Positions 1 through 6,127 of a stretch of DNA of 33,688 nt are shown here, piece after piece. Where the stretch lies: assembly GCA_020344955.1 (NCBI GenBank), contig CP070831.1, forward strand, positions 189,976 through 223,663. The letters are read 5' to 3'. Position 1 is the first letter of the stretch, and each line of letters opens with the position of its first letter. The notes below the pieces were generated by a model. The model was not told the origin of the DNA. It saw only the letters and a list, made by a program, of their open reading frames with translations, and ran no database searches. A program made the position numbers and the translations under genes. Source of the DNA: Promethearchaeota archaeon. GTDB taxonomy: Archaea; Asgardarchaeota; Lokiarchaeia; Sigyniarchaeales; SOKP01.

Positions 1-27
1 TCAAAAAAGAAAGCAAGCAAAAATTAA
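1..27 (+). CDS. C-terminal tail of a further mini-gene (partial)
   Basis: Reading frame 1 is open from the window edge to a TAA at 25-27 and encodes a short basic tail, SKKKASKN. A structured RNA element begins 7 nt after the stop. The same arrangement (basic tail, TAA, 6 nt, RNA) follows the two complete mini-genes at 261 and 1296, so this is probably the end of a third member. Only nine codons are visible, so the call rests on position and not on protein similarity. Confidence 0.3.
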   Translation, partial: SKKKASKN

Positions 28-34
28 ATTAAAA

Positions 35-101
35 AATCTCAAGGAATAGGTTATAAAACGCTAGGATCTATTCTTACGAATTCCGTGAAGAATTCGAGAT
101 T
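35..101 (+). promoter_or_regulatory. Three-way-junction RNA element, copy 1
   Basis: The outer stem AATCTC (35-40) pairs with GAGATT (96-101). Hairpin P2 is a 10-bp stem (42-51 with 66-75, including two G-U pairs) closing a 14-nt loop at 52-65. Hairpin P3 is GAATTC at 78-83 with 90-95. Almost every base pair of P2 differs from the copies at 405 and 1440, yet stem length, loop length and most loop bases are kept, which is covariation support for a real RNA fold. It lies just after a stop codon, as archaeal SECIS elements usually do. It does not show the textbook archaeal or eukaryotic SECIS core, so its role is inferred. Confidence 0.6.
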
Positions 102-260
102 AAAATGATAGTATCTATCCTTTTTTATTGGAACTTAAAATTATTCCATAATTTTTTATAAAACATTAATGCTCGTGAGTGAGTCTTTATATTTTATAAT
201 CGCCATTCTTTTATCTTTTATTTAGTTTGAGACACTTAGAAAACAGGTGATGATTAAATA

Positions 261-398
261 ATGGAAGATCAAGAAGATTATTTGGATCTCGCGTTTGATG
301 ATGATTGCTATAATACAAGTTGAGGAATGCTCAATATGTGGTATCGAAGAGCACAACAACTAAGAAAACTAAGAGACCGGGAAACTCAAAAAGATTAA
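261..398 (+). CDS. 45-residue mini-protein with in-frame UGA (candidate selenoprotein), copy A
   Basis: ATG at 261 follows the ribosome binding site GGTGAT (246-251), and the frame runs to TAA at 396-398. Codon 21 is TGA (321-323). If it is read through, the product has an acidic N-terminal half containing DDDCYNTS, the recoded residue, then GMLNMWYRRAQQ and a strongly basic C-terminal helix. Cys16 lies five residues before the recoded position, a C-x4-U spacing that could form a selenenylsulfide. The paralogue at 1296 keeps TGA, reading frame, length and stop. The structured RNA at 405-470 starts 6 nt after the stop, where an archaeal SECIS would be. I recognise no known selenoprotein family; it is not VhuU-like. 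Alternatives are a 20-residue peptide ending at TGA, or a young duplicated pseudogene. Confidence 0.5.
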
Positions 399-404
399 TC
401 TAAA

Positions 405-470
405 AATCTCAATAAATCAAATTATTAAATGATAGGATTTGATTTAGAGTTCCGCAAGAACTTGGAGATT
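405..470 (+). promoter_or_regulatory. Three-way-junction RNA element, copy A (SECIS candidate)
   Basis: P1 is AATCTC (405-410) with GAGATT (465-470). P2 is a perfect 10-bp stem (413-422 with 437-446) with the 14-nt loop TATTAAATGATAGG. P3 is AGTTC (448-452) with GAACT (458-462), loop CGCAA. Only A411, A412 and G464 are unpaired in the junction. The loop matches copy 1 at 11 of 14 positions. No T-run follows on the plus strand, so it is not a simple terminator for the upstream gene. Confidence 0.65.
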
Positions 471-495
471 AAAAAAAAGAGGATTTTAACAAAAT

Positions 496-631
496 ATATG
501 CTTTTTTCTTTTTATATGATGTACCCTTTACTCCTTAATATATTTCAGCTATTATTGCTCCAGCAATAAATCCTCCTCCATGAGCAAAATGGGTGATTTG
601 ACCGACGGAAAAAGGATCCACCAACGAATAA
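496..631 (-). pseudogene. Truncated rhomboid fragment
   Basis: The reverse strand encodes the last 45 or so residues of the rhomboid protease at 1532-2212 without indels, including FAHxGG around the catalytic histidine. The copy is broken. A Lys codon has become TAA near 534, the original stop codon has become TAT, and everything upstream of the last transmembrane helix, including the catalytic serine, is missing. It is a relic of the duplication that also copied the mini-gene. Confidence 0.85.
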
Positions 632-770
632 TTATCGAAAATTGCAATTTATTTGAAGAAAGAGAATTTACTTGACCTCTTTTAAATTAATTTCTCTCTT
701 CAGAAGTTTTTTATCTTAAATTTAATTTTCTTATTATAATAAAAGACAAGAAGTGATTTAAATAGCAAGA

Positions 771-1223
771 ATGGAATATGTAATAAGATGTGGATCAGCA
801 ATATTTTTTGGAAATTTAATAGTGTACTTCATGTACATTATTAATATAATGCCAGGTACAAGAACTTCTAGAGATGCTTATCTTTATTTTGTGGGTCCTA
901 TGTTTTTAGTAATATCAGGGCTTGTCATTATTGTTGGGATAGTATTATCTAAAAGGATGTCTTTAGAAAAGAAGATAACATCTACTCCGAAAATTGTCGG
1001 GTTTGAAAAAGTTCTATTTAATTATTTAAAAGAGAATCAAGGGAGGGCATTTACGGTAAAAGCTCTAAAGGGCAGAATTGAAGGTACTGTTGATATTTTT
1101 CAAAGAAAGTATTGTACTGAGGATAATATTAAAAGGATACTCGAGAGATTAGTATCTATTAAAGCTCTTCAATCAAATAAACATGAAGGAGAGCCTCATT
1201 ATTTTTTTCAAGGAAAAAAATAG
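771..1223 (+). CDS. Two-helix membrane protein with winged-helix-like C-terminus
   Basis: This is a 150-residue protein. Hydrophobic segments at about residues 8-27 and 41-60 would form two membrane helices. A soluble C-terminal part of about 85 residues follows (FEKVLFNYLKENQG, later NIKRILERLVSIKAL and YFFQ), with the helix-turn-helix and beta-hairpin rhythm of a winged-helix domain. This would suit a membrane-tethered DNA-binding or sensory protein. The ATG at 771 is used here. A GTGAT motif at 753-757 lies closer to an in-frame ATA at 762, so a slightly longer product is possible. The gene sits between the two duplication units. No family recognised. Confidence 0.6.
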   Translation: MEYVIRCGSAIFFGNLIVYFMYIINIMPGTRTSRDAYLYFVGPMFLVISGLVIIVGIVLSKRMSLEKKITSTPKIVGFEKVLFNYLKENQGRAFTVKALKGRIEGTVDIFQRKYCTEDNIKRILERLVSIKALQSNKHEGEPHYFFQGKK

Positions 1224-1295
1224 ATTATAAGCTTATGGTGTACTGGTTATTGGTTCTTCTAAGAATATTACGAATTATAACTTTAGAAAAGACTA

Positions 1296-1433
1296 ATGGA
1301 AGACCATGAAGATTATCTGGATCTAGAGTTTGATGATGATTGCTATAATACAAGTTGAGGAATGCTTAGCATGTGGTATCGAAGAGCACAACAACTAAGA
1401 AAACTAAGAGACCGGGAAAATCAAAAAGATTAA
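1296..1433 (+). CDS. 45-residue mini-protein with in-frame UGA (candidate selenoprotein), copy B
   Basis: ATG 1296, TGA at codon 21 (1356-1358), TAA at 1431-1433: the same architecture as the copy at 261. The two proteins differ at only four positions (Q4H, A11E, N25S, T42N), and four silent codon changes are also present. Cys16, the UGA codon, the following GML and the basic tail WYRRAQQLRKLRD are kept. The RNA element at 1440-1505 follows after 6 nt. Divergence between the copies is modest, so conservation of the TGA alone is weak evidence. The combination with the RNA fold, which is also present in the divergent copy at 35, makes recoding worth testing. Confidence 0.5.
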
Positions 1434-1439
1434 TCTAAA

Positions 1440-1505
1440 AATCTCAATAAATCAAGTTATCAAATGATAGGATTTGATTTAGAGTTCCGCAAGAACTTGG
1501 AGATT
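1440..1505 (+). promoter_or_regulatory. Three-way-junction RNA element, copy B (SECIS candidate)
   Basis: P1 is AATCTC (1440-1445) with GAGATT (1500-1505). P2 pairs 1448-1457 with 1472-1481, where A-U of copy A is replaced by G-U at 1456/1473. The 14-nt loop TATCAAATGATAGG differs from copy A at one base. P3 is AGTTC (1483-1487) with GAACT (1493-1497). The element ends about 26 nt before the convergent rhomboid stop codon. Confidence 0.65.
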
Positions 1506-1531
1506 TAAAAAAAAAAGGAATTTAACAAAAT

Positions 1532-2212
1532 TTATGCTTTTTTCTTTTTATATGATGTACCCTTTACTCCTTTATATATTCCAGCTATTATCGCTCCAGC
1601 AACAAAACCTCCTACATGAGCAAAATGGGCTGTTTGACCAACAGAAAAAGGATCTACCAGCGAATAAATAGCGTATGATAATTCAGCAATAAAGTATGTT
1701 AATATAAAATACCCTGCATTTACTTTTCGCATTGACATACCAGTGGCCGATGGAAGATAAAATTTATTTCTAGAATAGAGAATTAAATATACTCCCATCA
1801 AACCAAATATAGCTCCGGAAGCTCCGAGAGAAGGAATCATATCAAATCCAAGAATCGGTATTACTATAGTGCTTAATGCGTGAAGTAAGCTTCCAAAAAA
1901 TCCTGATATAAAGTATGTCACTAGATATAATATATGACCCATCGCATGTTCGCAATTGTCAGTTATTATAATGAAAAACCACATATTCATAAGGATATGT
2001 ACGAAATCTCCATGCATGAACATTGAAGTAATTAAAGTCCACCAATTTCGTCCTGCAAAGAAATCCGCAGGAACAAAAGCAGCTTCAATATGCATTTGAC
2101 CTGTAGGATCAAGTAATTGCCAAATAAATACGATAATGTTTGCAGCTAAGATAATTACAGAGAAGTATTGTTTAAAAAATGGAATTTTATCTGGTTCTGC
2201 TTCATATACCAT
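1532..2212 (-). CDS. Rhomboid-family intramembrane serine protease
   Basis: The 226-residue, mostly hydrophobic protein has about six membrane helices. Rhomboids cleave single-pass membrane proteins within the bilayer using a Ser-His dyad. The serine lies in GASGAIFG (Ser132) and the histidine in AHFAHVGG (His199). His72 and Asn76 in HGDFVHILMNM match the conserved H-x3-N oxyanion region. Length fits a minimal six-helix rhomboid, followed by the basic tail GTSYKKKKA. The gene is convergent with mini-gene B, and a broken copy of its 3' end lies at 496-631. The substrate is unknown. Confidence 0.9.
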   Translation of the reverse strand: MVYEAEPDKIPFFKQYFSVIILAANIIVFIWQLLDPTGQMHIEAAFVPADFFAGRNWWTLITSMFMHGDFVHILMNMWFFIIITDNCEHAMGHILYLVTYFISGFFGSLLHALSTIVIPILGFDMIPSLGASGAIFGLMGVYLILYSRNKFYLPSATGMSMRKVNAGYFILTYFIAELSYAIYSLVDPFSVGQTAHFAHVGGFVAGAIIAGIYKGVKGTSYKKKKA

Positions 2213-2364
2213 TTTTATTAACTCTTATAGTGTTTAAAGTTTAAAATTATAATAGGTGAAGATAATTTGCTCAAATGATATAAAAATTTTTAGATTAAAA
2301 TCTAAAATGAGATATTAATAAAACTACATTTAACCAAAAAATAAAAAAGAGGAGATCAAGAATT

Positions 2365-2757
2365 TTAATTATCCTTTCCTAAAATTTCTTTTATTCTGTT
2401 TAAAAGTTCTTTCCCTGAAAAAGGTTTGGTAATATAGGCGTCAGCACCTAGTTTCTTACCCTTTTGAACATCTTCATTAAAACTTTTAACTGTAAATAAT
2501 ACTACAAGAATATCTTTAAACTTTTCATTGTTTTTAACCTCCTCCAAAACAGAATACCCACTTCGACCAGGCATCATAATATCTAGTAGTATTAAGGCAA
2601 TTCTGTCATAACTTTCCTCAATAATTTTCATAGCTTCTTTCGCATTACTACTTGTAATAGTGTCAAAATCTCCCAATTTTAAGAATTTCTCAGTTAAATT
2701 CACGATATCGGGTTCATCATCGACAATAAGAATTGTATTTTTCATTTTTGCAGCCAT
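2365..2757 (-). CDS. CheY-like response regulator receiver protein
   Basis: This is a single-domain receiver of 130 residues with the full active site: acidic pair Asp13-Asp14 (VDDEPD), phosphoacceptor Asp59 in LLDIMMPG, Thr89 in VLFTVKS, and Lys111 in ITKPFSG. No output domain is attached, so it should act by protein-protein contact after phosphorylation. The start may be Met1 or the internal MKNTIL. No histidine kinase is in the window. The gene is divergent from the methyltransferase gene at 2875 across about 117 nt. Confidence 0.92.
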   Translation of the reverse strand: MAAKMKNTILIVDDEPDIVNLTEKFLKLGDFDTITSSNAKEAMKIIEESYDRIALILLDIMMPGRSGYSVLEEVKNNEKFKDILVVLFTVKSFNEDVQKGKKLGADAYITKPFSGKELLNRIKEILGKDN

Positions 2758-2835
2758 AACAAATCCTAACCTTTTAATTTATTGTCTTGATTTGTGTGTA
2801 AAAAATTTCTCTTATATTATATTGAATTTAGTCAG

Positions 2836-2845
2836 TTATATAAAT
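2836..2845 (+). promoter_or_regulatory. TATA box (box A) for the methyltransferase operon
   Basis: TTATATAAAT ends 29 nt before the TTG start at 2875, so transcription should begin within about 10 nt of the coding region and the message would be nearly leaderless. GTGAT at 2865-2869 could act as a short ribosome binding site. Confidence 0.5.
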
Positions 2846-2874
2846 AAGTTTATTTTTTACATTTGTGATCATCA

Positions 2875-3534
2875 TTGGTAAGAAAAAACCGACTTCCTAT
2901 ATTTCCAGATGACTATATTGAAGATAAAGCGGAAGAATATGATAGCTCAAAATGGATGGAGCGCAATCAAAAAAGAAGCACATTAATAAGTGTTGAATAC
3001 CTTTTCGATGAAAGATTAAACGATATTGAGGATATAGGGACTGAAATGGGAGAATCATCATTAATTTTAGATTTAGGATGTGGAACTGGTTATTCATCAG
3101 AAGTTTTAATTCAAAATGGTTTTAGAGTAGTTGGTGTTGATATTTTAAATGATATGTTATCAAAAGCTAGAGAGAAAAAAAAAATTTCTAAAGAATTAAA
3201 AAAATTGGAATTAATCTTAGCAGATATTAACAATTTGCCAATTAGAAATAACTCAGTCGATTACATAATCTCAATATCATCATACAACTTTATAATTCAT
3301 GGCTTGGAAAATTATGGTGAGAAAGTAAAACTGTTAAATAACACTGGAAAAAATTTAAATAATTTTTTAAAGAATAAGGGAAGAGTTGTTATTGAGTTTT
3401 ATCCTAAAGATGATAATGAATTAAAAATATTTAATAAGTCATTTATTAATAATGGGTTTGAAGGATTTGTAGTAAAAAACAAGCCAAAACAGAAATCTGG
3501 TCAAACCTTTCTATTACTAAAGAAAAGAATGTAA
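2875..3534 (+). CDS. Bud23-like SAM-dependent methyltransferase (rRNA guanine-N7 type)
   Basis: This is a 219-residue class I methyltransferase. The SAM-binding motif LDLGCGTG is at 65-72 and the acidic motif VVGVDI at about 85-90. Several features match eukaryotic Bud23, which methylates N7 of a small-subunit rRNA guanine with Trm112. These are the N-terminal P-x(n)-EEYDSS-x(n)-Q layout, the SSEVL segment after motif I, ISISSYNF near 132-139, and especially VVIEFYPKDDNEL near 171-182 followed by NNGFEGFVV. No Trm112 gene is in the window. The start is TTG after GTGAT. Its stop codon lies 2 nt before the radical SAM ATG, so the two are probably one operon. Bud23-like membership is likely; the exact rRNA target is inferred. 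Confidence 0.75.
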   Translation: MVRKNRLPIFPDDYIEDKAEEYDSSKWMERNQKRSTLISVEYLFDERLNDIEDIGTEMGESSLILDLGCGTGYSSEVLIQNGFRVVGVDILNDMLSKAREKKKISKELKKLELILADINNLPIRNNSVDYIISISSYNFIIHGLENYGEKVKLLNNTGKNLNNFLKNKGRVVIEFYPKDDNELKIFNKSFINNGFEGFVVKNKPKQKSGQTFLLLKKRM

Positions 3535-3536
3535 TT

Positions 3537-4673
3537 ATGGGAACCTGTAAATTCTGTGGCAAAACAGAGAAAGTAATCTCAGAAATTCTAGAGGTATGTA
3601 GAACATGTATTTTAGAAGGTGATTGGGATCAAATTAAACCACATATATTCAATGTTCACAAACAGGTTCGTCAGCTTGTAAAATTACCAGAAAAACCTCC
3701 AAAAGCAGAGAAGCCAAATATAAAGTTAAAATGTAATCTATGTGTAAATGAATGTGCTCTATCTGATAATGATATCAGTTATTGTGGTCTCAGAAATATT
3801 CAATTAAGAACTTCGGGGCAATTACCATACCCCTCAAAATCGAAAGGATATATTCATGGGTATATAGATTCAAATCCAACTAATTGTTGTAATAGCTGGT
3901 TTTGTCCAGCTGGAACATCAGCAGGCTATCCAACATATTCCAATTATGATGGTCCAGAATATGGTACATATAGTTATGCTGCTTTTCTCTATGGCTGCAC
4001 CTTTAACTGCCTATTCTGTCAGAATAGTAGTCATAAGCTCTTTTCAAAAAGACACTTATTTGATGTTGAAACTCTAGTTAATCAAATTGTTAAAAATGAA
4101 GATATTACTTGTTTGTGTTATTTTGGAGGAACTCCTGAAGCTCAATTACCTTTTTCAATTAATTTAGCTGAGAAAATCGTAGAAAAACTCAAAAATAAGA
4201 AAAGAATCATGAGGTTCTGTTGGGAATGGAATGGCTCTGGTAAACGTGAATGGATTGAAAAAGCAATGCAAATAGCTATTAATACAGGAGGAAATATCAA
4301 ATTTGATTTAAAAACATTTCATGAAAAACTAAATTTTGCATTATGTGGGGTAAGTAACAAAAGAACACTGGAGAATTTTAAATTTCTTGCTGAGAATTAT
4401 TTTGGTACACGGGGAAAAGATATGCCAGAATTGAGTGGGTGCACATTAATGGTTCCAGGTTATACTAATCATGAGGAAGTGGAGTTAATTACGAAATTTG
4501 TTAGTGAGATAAATCCTGAGATTCCTTACAGCCTCTTAGTATTTCATGGTGATTATCAAATGAGAGATTTACCTATTACTCCAAAAAAGCAAGCTTTAAA
4601 ATGTCTTGAGGTCGCAGAAAAGTATTTAAAGAACGTGAATTTGGGGAATAAATTTTTATTAGGATTTTCTTGA
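3537..4673 (+). CDS. Radical SAM protein, PFL-activase-like, with N-terminal zinc-binding region
   Basis: This is a 378-residue protein. Residues 1-30 hold CKFCGK and CRTC, a likely zinc ribbon. A second Cys-rich stretch (CNLCVNECALS, later CGLRN, NNCC-type and WFCPAG) precedes the radical SAM core. The [4Fe-4S] motif is CTFNCLFC (Cys154, Cys158, Cys161) in the C-x3-C-x2-C spacing, followed by YFGGTPE. It resembles the uncharacterised PflA-related radical SAM proteins (COG1180/COG1313 style). The C-terminal part (SGCTLMVPGYTNHEE, HGDYQMRDLP) is duplicated as a fragment at 5828-6127. The gene is tightly coupled to the Bud23-like methyltransferase, which may hint at RNA or protein modification. 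The substrate is unknown. Confidence 0.85.
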   Translation: MGTCKFCGKTEKVISEILEVCRTCILEGDWDQIKPHIFNVHKQVRQLVKLPEKPPKAEKPNIKLKCNLCVNECALSDNDISYCGLRNIQLRTSGQLPYPSKSKGYIHGYIDSNPTNCCNSWFCPAGTSAGYPTYSNYDGPEYGTYSYAAFLYGCTFNCLFCQNSSHKLFSKRHLFDVETLVNQIVKNEDITCLCYFGGTPEAQLPFSINLAEKIVEKLKNKKRIMRFCWEWNGSGKREWIEKAMQIAINTGGNIKFDLKTFHEKLNFALCGVSNKRTLENFKFLAENYFGTRGKDMPELSGCTLMVPGYTNHEEVELITKFVSEINPEIPYSLLVFHGDYQMRDLPITPKKQALKCLEVAEKYLKNVNLGNKFLLGFS

Positions 4674-4699
4674 TTTAAATCATTACTTGTTATTATAAC

Positions 4700-5674
4700 T
4701 CATGGTGATGGGAGCACAGTTAAGTCCCAAATTTTTTCAGCTTCGAGCTCTCCATCGGTTATGATCACTTTAATTTCGAACATCCCTGGATGATAATCCC
4801 CTGAAAAAGTATAGTTGCCGCCAATTTTTGTTAATACATCATCCACGTACCAATTTATGTTTAATGGATCACCATCTAAATCTTTTACTCTAATCCTAAA
4901 TGTTATTTGCTGATCTTCATAAATATATGGAGTGAGGTCTGTAGGGGAATACCAAACAATTTCAGGAGCACGATTGATATTATTTACAGTTAAAGTCCAA
5001 ATCTTTTCTACGACATACTCGCCATCTGTAATGTTTACTTTTACTGTATGCGTACCATTGGAAAAGTAATCGGTTTCATATATATAATTCTCTGAAGTCC
5101 CTCCCGTATATGAGAAGTTTATACCCGTGCTTTTATACCAGATATTCCATTCATAAGTAAAAAGGGTATTATCAACATCCGTTATGGTAATAGCGAATTC
5201 TTGGGACTCGTTTTCATTGATTTCAGAATATGATAAAGGGGAAAAATCAACAATGAAAAGAGGATCGTTCACAATAGTCACATTCACTTTAAACACATCC
5301 GTATCGGTCAGTTTTCCATCTGAAACTTCAATTATCACATAAGAAACTCCAGACCACTCAGCAAGTGGAATAATATCTACGAGATTATCTGTGTCAATAC
5401 TCACTCCGCAGTTTGGGTTTGAATTCACTAGAATGGAATAGTTAAGAGGATCTGACTCTGGATCTGAACTATAATCGCTGAGATTAAAAGCATCTAATTG
5501 CGGAGAGTCTTCTGAGATTGTAATATCAGGCAACTCTGAGATTATAGGGGGTTTATTTTCACCATCTCGCCCAGTTGGCTGATTATATATATAGAAAAAT
5601 ACTCCAGTAGTTATTCCTGAACCAGCTAACGCTGATGCTATGATAATAACAATAATCTTAATATTAAATTTCAC
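4700..5674 (-). CDS. Membrane-anchored surface protein with Ig-like/cadherin-like repeats
   Basis: The 324-residue protein has an N-terminal hydrophobic helix (residues 7-30) acting as signal-anchor. Three beta-rich modules of about 90-100 residues follow, at roughly 40-135, 140-230 and 235-322. Each ends in a strand such as VIIEVSDGKL, VKVNITDGEY or IKVIITDGELEAEKIW, typical of Ig-like/PKD/cadherin folds. DPESDPL and DLDGDPL resemble calcium-ligand or inter-domain loops. The modules share sequence, which suggests internal duplication. It should face outside the cell. The gene is convergent with the radical SAM gene (26 nt apart). Function beyond a surface role is unknown. Confidence 0.75.
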   Translation of the reverse strand: MKFNIKIIVIIIASALAGSGITTGVFFYIYNQPTGRDGENKPPIISELPDITISEDSPQLDAFNLSDYSSDPESDPLNYSILVNSNPNCGVSIDTDNLVDIIPLAEWSGVSYVIIEVSDGKLTDTDVFKVNVTIVNDPLFIVDFSPLSYSEINENESQEFAITITDVDNTLFTYEWNIWYKSTGINFSYTGGTSENYIYETDYFSNGTHTVKVNITDGEYVVEKIWTLTVNNINRAPEIVWYSPTDLTPYIYEDQQITFRIRVKDLDGDPLNINWYVDDVLTKIGGNYTFSGDYHPGMFEIKVIITDGELEAEKIWDLTVLPSP

Positions 5675-5827: not shown

Positions 5828-6127
5828 GAAAATTTTAAATATCTTGCCGAAAATTATTTTGGAACGAGAAAAGATTTACTTGAGATGAGTGCGTGTACAC
5901 TGATGGTACCTGGTTATACGAATCATAAGGAAGTAGAGCAGATTGCCGAATTTGTTAGCTCTATTAACAATGAAATTCCATACAGTCTATTAATATTTCA
6001 TGGAGATTATCAAATGCGAGATTTAGGGATTACACCACGAAAACAAGCATTAAAATGCTTGGAAGTATCTAAAAAATACTTAAAAAGAGTAAATCTTGGA
6101 AATAAATTCTTGATAGGATTTGCGTAA
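5828..6127 (+). pseudogene. 3' fragment of a radical SAM gene
   Basis: In-frame similarity to the radical SAM protein at 3537-4673 begins at GAA 5828 (ENFKYLAENYFGTR) and continues to the TAA at 6125-6127. It covers only the last 100 or so residues. The Fe-S motif and the SAM-binding barrel are absent, and no start codon precedes the fragment except an internal ATG at 5885. Amino-acid similarity is high and many third positions differ, so the fragment was under coding constraint for some time or came from a related gene copy. A functional stand-alone C-terminal domain starting at 5885 is less likely. Confidence 0.8.

Follow-up and report, generated by a model that had tools for sequence, protein, structure and literature searches.

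At its very start, the stretch of Promethearchaeota DNA analysed here (33,688 nt of contig CP070831.1, hereafter the window) carries short reading frames that are interrupted by an in-frame TGA and followed closely by structured RNAs. This arrangement raises the question of whether the UGA is read as selenocysteine (Sec) and whether the RNA is the SECIS element that would make this possible. The initial annotation of the window had described two genes of 45 residues with TGA as codon 21 and a cysteine at residue 16, and a structured RNA starting 6 nt after each stop codon. Translation of the two frames, which end in TAA and have the layout C-x4-UGA, agrees with this description, as does the position of the RNA, whose stem P1 begins 6 nt past the stop codon in both copies (Table 1). 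We refer to these genes as family B.

Table 1. Features at the start of the window; SECIS and selenoprotein assignments are predictions, and fold z compares each RNA with shuffled sequences.
Feature	Position	Strand	Details
Putative family-A selenoprotein gene, 3′ end	2..49	+	Tail QKRKQAKIKLKNLKE followed by the stop; matches complete homologues in L029, L003 etc.; remainder, including the UGA, in the upstream gap
Candidate three-way-junction SECIS, family-A gene	34..103	+	Model R1 61.1 bits, E 2.7e-11; fold z -4.2
Duplicated segment, copy 1	258..645	.	Family-B gene, candidate SECIS and rhomboid 3′ fragment; other copy ~1293-1680; 89% identity
Putative family-B selenoprotein gene, copy 1	261..398	+	45 codons, predicted Sec UGA 321-323, Cys16
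Candidate three-way-junction SECIS, family-B copy 1	404..472	+	R1 87.2 bits; fold z -3.6
Putative family-B selenoprotein gene, copy 2	1296..1433	+	45 codons, predicted Sec UGA 1356-1358, Cys16
Candidate three-way-junction SECIS, family-B copy 2	1439..1507	+	R1 84.9 bits; fold z -4.0

The likeness between the two family-B copies of the window is weak evidence, because both sit in a recently duplicated segment of ~385 bp (repeat search and alignment; ~89% identical), and our case is therefore built on other genomes. The segment also contains, on the minus strand at ~497-645, a 3′-end fragment of the rhomboid-like gene located at 1532-2212; the fragment is not a complete gene any more. An ORF of 150 residues with hydrophobic segments (771-1223, plus strand) separates the family-B copies. 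UGA also serves as an ordinary stop codon in this genome, since 8 of the 25 long ORFs of the window end in TGA.

A third RNA had been placed by the initial annotation behind the tail of another ORF. The placement stood, and the ORF, whose identity had not been given, is the end of a UGA gene of another family, A. Directly upstream of the window there is a run of ~100 N (L030, ~5875-5976), probably a scaffold gap, that would hide the rest of this gene. Complete family-A genes have the layout C-T-G-UGA (C-x-x-U), as in an example from a relative, MSEWKSKLDNEFDDFDYAESNCTGUSIVDSVIACIRGIKKRRQNRKQAKIKIKNLKE. The TAG stop codon of family A (window 47-49) falls within the 5′ arm of stem P2 of its own RNA. 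Genes of the two families have ~45-57 codons and the RNA elements ~70 nt; genomes that have both A and B usually carry two RNAs per locus, ~370 nt apart, with the upstream one coming after the family-A gene, and the first RNA of the window is that upstream copy. The gene order conserved around A and B is split in the window's genome (G000) over two places, G000:C1 ~2.126-2.138 Mb (L092) and window positions 1-4700. Both places hold copies of A and B, with A at the window truncated by the gap, which suggests that the assembly is chimeric or that a rearrangement duplicated sequence at its breakpoint.

We then looked at how UGA behaves among relatives, whose genomes are mostly metagenome bins. 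Family B was found in 27 of 147 related genomes, with one in-frame TGA in all copies except one; within its taxonomic family this corresponds to 27 of 65 genomes and 29 genes, of which one has TGT and the other 28 TGA. Of the 228 genomes of the phylum, 46 carry family A, all of them inside the same taxonomic family as B, and TGA is present in 46/46 copies. The hosts of both families are Candidatus Lokiarchaeota, and a DNA pattern of the RNA matched four such MAGs. A family-A protein pattern had no match in genome contigs, as expected, because it spells Cys where the genes have TGA. Selection continues beyond the UGA in both families, as judged from dN/dS, which is 0.49 before and 0.52 after it in A, and 0.22 before and 0.35 after it in B. 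The sole non-UGA gene, the family-B gene of genome G017, has TGT (Cys) at the UGA codon; no Cys homologue was found in family A. The A and B genes of G015 (L009), and G017 B (L014), appear to have TGA as their true stop, so that in the G015 genes UGA would mean Sec internally and stop terminally, near the SECIS. A profile comparison of the two families, which gave a probability of 31 with E 5e-4, placed the U of A opposite the U of B, and a common origin is possible.

The peptides have no match in NCBIfam or PDB and no significant match in Pfam; a Pfam RHS_N match to B (E 0.11) and two PHROG matches to A (E 0.03 and 0.05) were rejected as not significant. The gene neighbourhood of A and B is conserved and points to no function. 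The hydrogenase of methanogens has a selenoprotein subunit, VhuU, that is likewise a very small archaeal selenopeptide; however, no sequence likeness to A or B was recognised, and no hydrogenase gene was seen in the conserved neighbourhood. In a comparison by name, motif and domain, neither the seven Asgard selenoprotein families (Huang et al. 2024, PMC11227280) nor the table of a 2026 review, which lists 119 families (PMC13188914), includes A or B. With the known Asgard selenoproteins (SelD, FrhA/VhuU, HdrA, FrhD/VhuD, Prx-like, AhpF-N and DsbA-like) they would share UGA for Sec and a SECIS on the 3′ side, and the C-x-x-U motif of family A is also that of FrhD and HdrA. Structure models, of modest confidence, are long helices (residues 23-56 of A, mean pLDDT 75; residues 14-44 of B, mean pLDDT 79), and in each model U falls early in the helix. 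Each peptide is acidic at the N-terminus and basic in its tail, which, together with C-x-x-U or C-x4-U, suggests that A and B are small redox peptides.

The RNA was followed with a covariance model, R1, searched against the 147 genomes, which gave 75 copies, all within one taxonomic family. Seven weak matches elsewhere (E > 0.003) were set aside as chance, having no UGA mini-gene and a poor fold. An Rfam scan of the window returned no match above the gathering threshold, either to SECIS or to any other family. All three RNAs of the window fold better than shuffled sequences. In the 75 sequences, the 20-pair three-way junction has 94.9% of its cells paired, and double changes are found at 15 of the 20 pairs (141 such cells versus 35 ± 7 in shuffles); sliding the pairing partners by one column destroys this compensatory signal. 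Compensatory changes, originally noted for stem P2 of the third copy, are thus abundant in the whole set. Stem P2 had been described with 10 pairs and a 14-nt loop; the pair count holds (~9-11 bp here), but the loop has 12 nt. The conserved parts of the RNA are P1 (UCUC/GAGA) and the P2 loop, which reads AAAnnnUAG in 74/75 copies and has three invariant adenines in the alignment. The P3 loop is GCAA-like and more loosely conserved (62/75 with a simple pattern).

Does this RNA resemble known SECIS elements? The Asgard eSECIS-like elements, types I and II, as set out in the text of Huang et al. 2024 (PMC11227280), have a core AUGA_GA (loose form GA_[G/A]A), an upper stem of 7-15 bp, an apical loop of 8-20 nt and unpaired adenines in the loop. 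The mini-gene RNAs share with them the place in the 3′ UTR near the gene, the length of P2, the size of the apical loop and the conserved loop adenines, and lie inside these stem and loop ranges. In contrast, they do not have AUGA_GA at the base of P2 and stand outside the Asgard models published there. The strict quartet occurs in 9/11 SelD and 8/17 FrhD 3′ regions versus 3/75 mini-gene RNAs; in its relaxed form it occurs in 11/11, 14/17 and 8-10/75, respectively, the last against ~6 in shuffles. Euryarchaeal SECIS elements (Methanococcales) are found in the 3′ UTR of selenoprotein genes too, but their GAA_A bulge is found in the mini-gene RNAs only at the level of chance (7/75 versus 6.1 in shuffles). 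The initial annotation was, thus, correct that both the standard GAA/A and the kink-turn cores are missing.

The SelD 3′ regions of these genomes form a three-way junction as well, in which the base of P2 carries AUGA_GA, the P2 loop contains a ministem and P3 ends in a loop of GCAA/GCGA type; 93.7% of the junction pairs are formed, with 13 double-change cells versus 3.3 expected. FrhD 3′ regions can be drawn by eye in the same three-way layout, their alignment being too poor for pair counting. An AAAnnnUAG-type motif is present in 12 of the 17, and in ten FrhD elements it is located, by eye, in the P2 loop. R1 does not detect the SelD 3′ regions; the likeness to SelD and FrhD SECIS, therefore, is one of architecture and loop and not of overall sequence. 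Since the architecture is common to the ordinary SECIS of the same genomes, the mini-gene RNA is best taken as a SECIS variant, and not as the different recoding element that had earlier been offered as an alternative. The junction with P1 and P3, common to mini-gene, SelD and FrhD RNAs, is not in the Asgard model as worded in the accessible text (PMC11227280), although a third arm may have been drawn in earlier literature. This third arm (P3) of the ordinary SelD and FrhD SECIS of these Lokiarchaeota is seen at loci L112-L134 and L199-L217, with covariation for SelD.

The window's genome has genes for Sec synthesis and insertion. We found SepSecS (482 bits) and, adjoining it, a tRNA-Sec with a UCA anticodon that scores 35 bits, below the Rfam cut-off of 47; two SelB/EFSec candidates, with scores just under the NCBIfam cut-off; two SelD genes, each with an in-frame TGA; and FrhD/MvhD genes with two in-frame TGAs. 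A tRNA-Sec search over many genomes scored just part of the candidates, and absences in it were left out of the evidence. A second SelB-like gene, a tRNA-like match and an N-terminal fragment of SepSecS lie at G000:C1:772224-778292, which is either a partial second cluster of Sec machinery or a sign of strain mixing in the bin. The machinery bears on the possibility that the UGA undergoes programmed read-through, promoted by the RNA, with insertion of an ordinary amino acid and no selenium. Constraint past the UGA would look identical in the coding sequence in that case. We nevertheless consider it very unlikely, given that Cys is the sole sense codon found replacing UGA, that the C-x-x-U layout of family A is common in redox selenoproteins (PMC13188914), and that these genomes combine the Sec machinery with other UGA selenoprotein genes of the same SECIS architecture.

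The RNA is closely tied to the UGA. It lies directly downstream, within 16 nt of the end of the match, in 73 of 74 UGA genes (45/46 in A, 28/28 in UGA-B), all of which are related by descent. The exception, the family-A gene of G044, has its end ~20 nt upstream of its B partner, and the latter is followed by the RNA; this single RNA seems to be common to these adjacent UGA genes, much as one element is reported to serve adjacent hdrA and frhD in Asgard archaea (PMC11227280). Every RNA homologue accompanies a UGA gene, barring two whose genes are cut off, the window's first copy by the assembly gap and one in G016 by the contig end. Behind the Cys gene G017 B, there was no confident R1 match even with all filters off, and the family-A gene adjoining it retains both UGA and RNA, which makes a natural control within one genome; the tie between Cys and RNA loss is this one case. 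A canonical AUGA_GA element was found within 600 nt after 4 of 27 UGA-B genes (0.6 expected from shuffles), and two of these overlap the RNA, so that for most genes the mini-gene RNA is the sole SECIS candidate found. These observations leave it extremely unlikely that the real SECIS is elsewhere and that the RNA serves some purpose other than recoding, as a riboregulator, a terminator or a stabiliser of the mRNA. The rarity of the AUGA_GA quartet in the RNAs would fit such a role; however, the lack of another candidate behind most UGA-B genes, the absence of the RNA behind the Cys gene, its apparent sharing in G044 and its match to the architecture of SelD SECIS all speak against it. The chance that UGA is a true stop, leaving peptides of 15 to 25 residues or degraded genes, is negligible: the frames do end there under the standard code, but frame, sequence and selection go on past it in the UGA genes, and G017 B reads straight through with Cys.

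It is thus very probable that A and B are two new families of small selenoproteins whose SECIS is a three-way junction without the quartet. The conservation of the UGA, the constraint past it, the RNA, its tie to the UGA and the machinery genes are directly visible in the sequences, and we infer with high confidence that Sec is inserted at the UGA and that the RNA takes part in the insertion. The original proposal, a new family of small selenoproteins and a SECIS in the 3′ UTR, passed each of the refuting checks named with it, with two families in place of one. In the mechanism we propose, the ribosome would encounter UGA within the reading frame, as part of C-T-G-U in A and of C-x4-U in B, and the RNA right behind the stop codon, acting as SECIS, would direct tRNA-Sec (UCA) and EFSec to it. 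This element would consist of the closing stem P1, P2 with its AAAnnnUAG loop, and P3, which usually ends in a loop of GCAA type. The mini-gene elements would have mostly lost the AUGA_GA quartet from the base of P2, or would never have had it. The selenol would be placed near the start of the predicted long helix, consistent with a redox role of the peptides.

The seven selenoprotein families known from Asgard archaea (Huang et al. 2024, PMC11227280) would be joined by two others that rank among the smallest, and that would be overlooked by a search setting out from known families and the AUGA_GA core. The quartet is taken to define the archaeal-eukaryotic element, and we lean slightly towards the view that Lokiarchaeota read a quartet-less class of SECIS, the constant part of which is the three-way junction, the AAAnnnUAG apical loop and, often, a third arm of GCAA type. 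If this is true, the SECIS-binding factor would recognise the apical loop and the junction rather than the kink-turn, and the quartet would have been added and then become indispensable in the lineage leading to eukaryotes. Huang et al. 2024 report no significant homologue of SBP2 in Asgard archaea (PMC11227280). Lokiarchaeota are archaea near the origin of eukaryotes, and the third arm of their SECIS, together with the quartet-less set, would bear on the origin of eukaryotic SECIS and on the identity of the Asgard SECIS binder.
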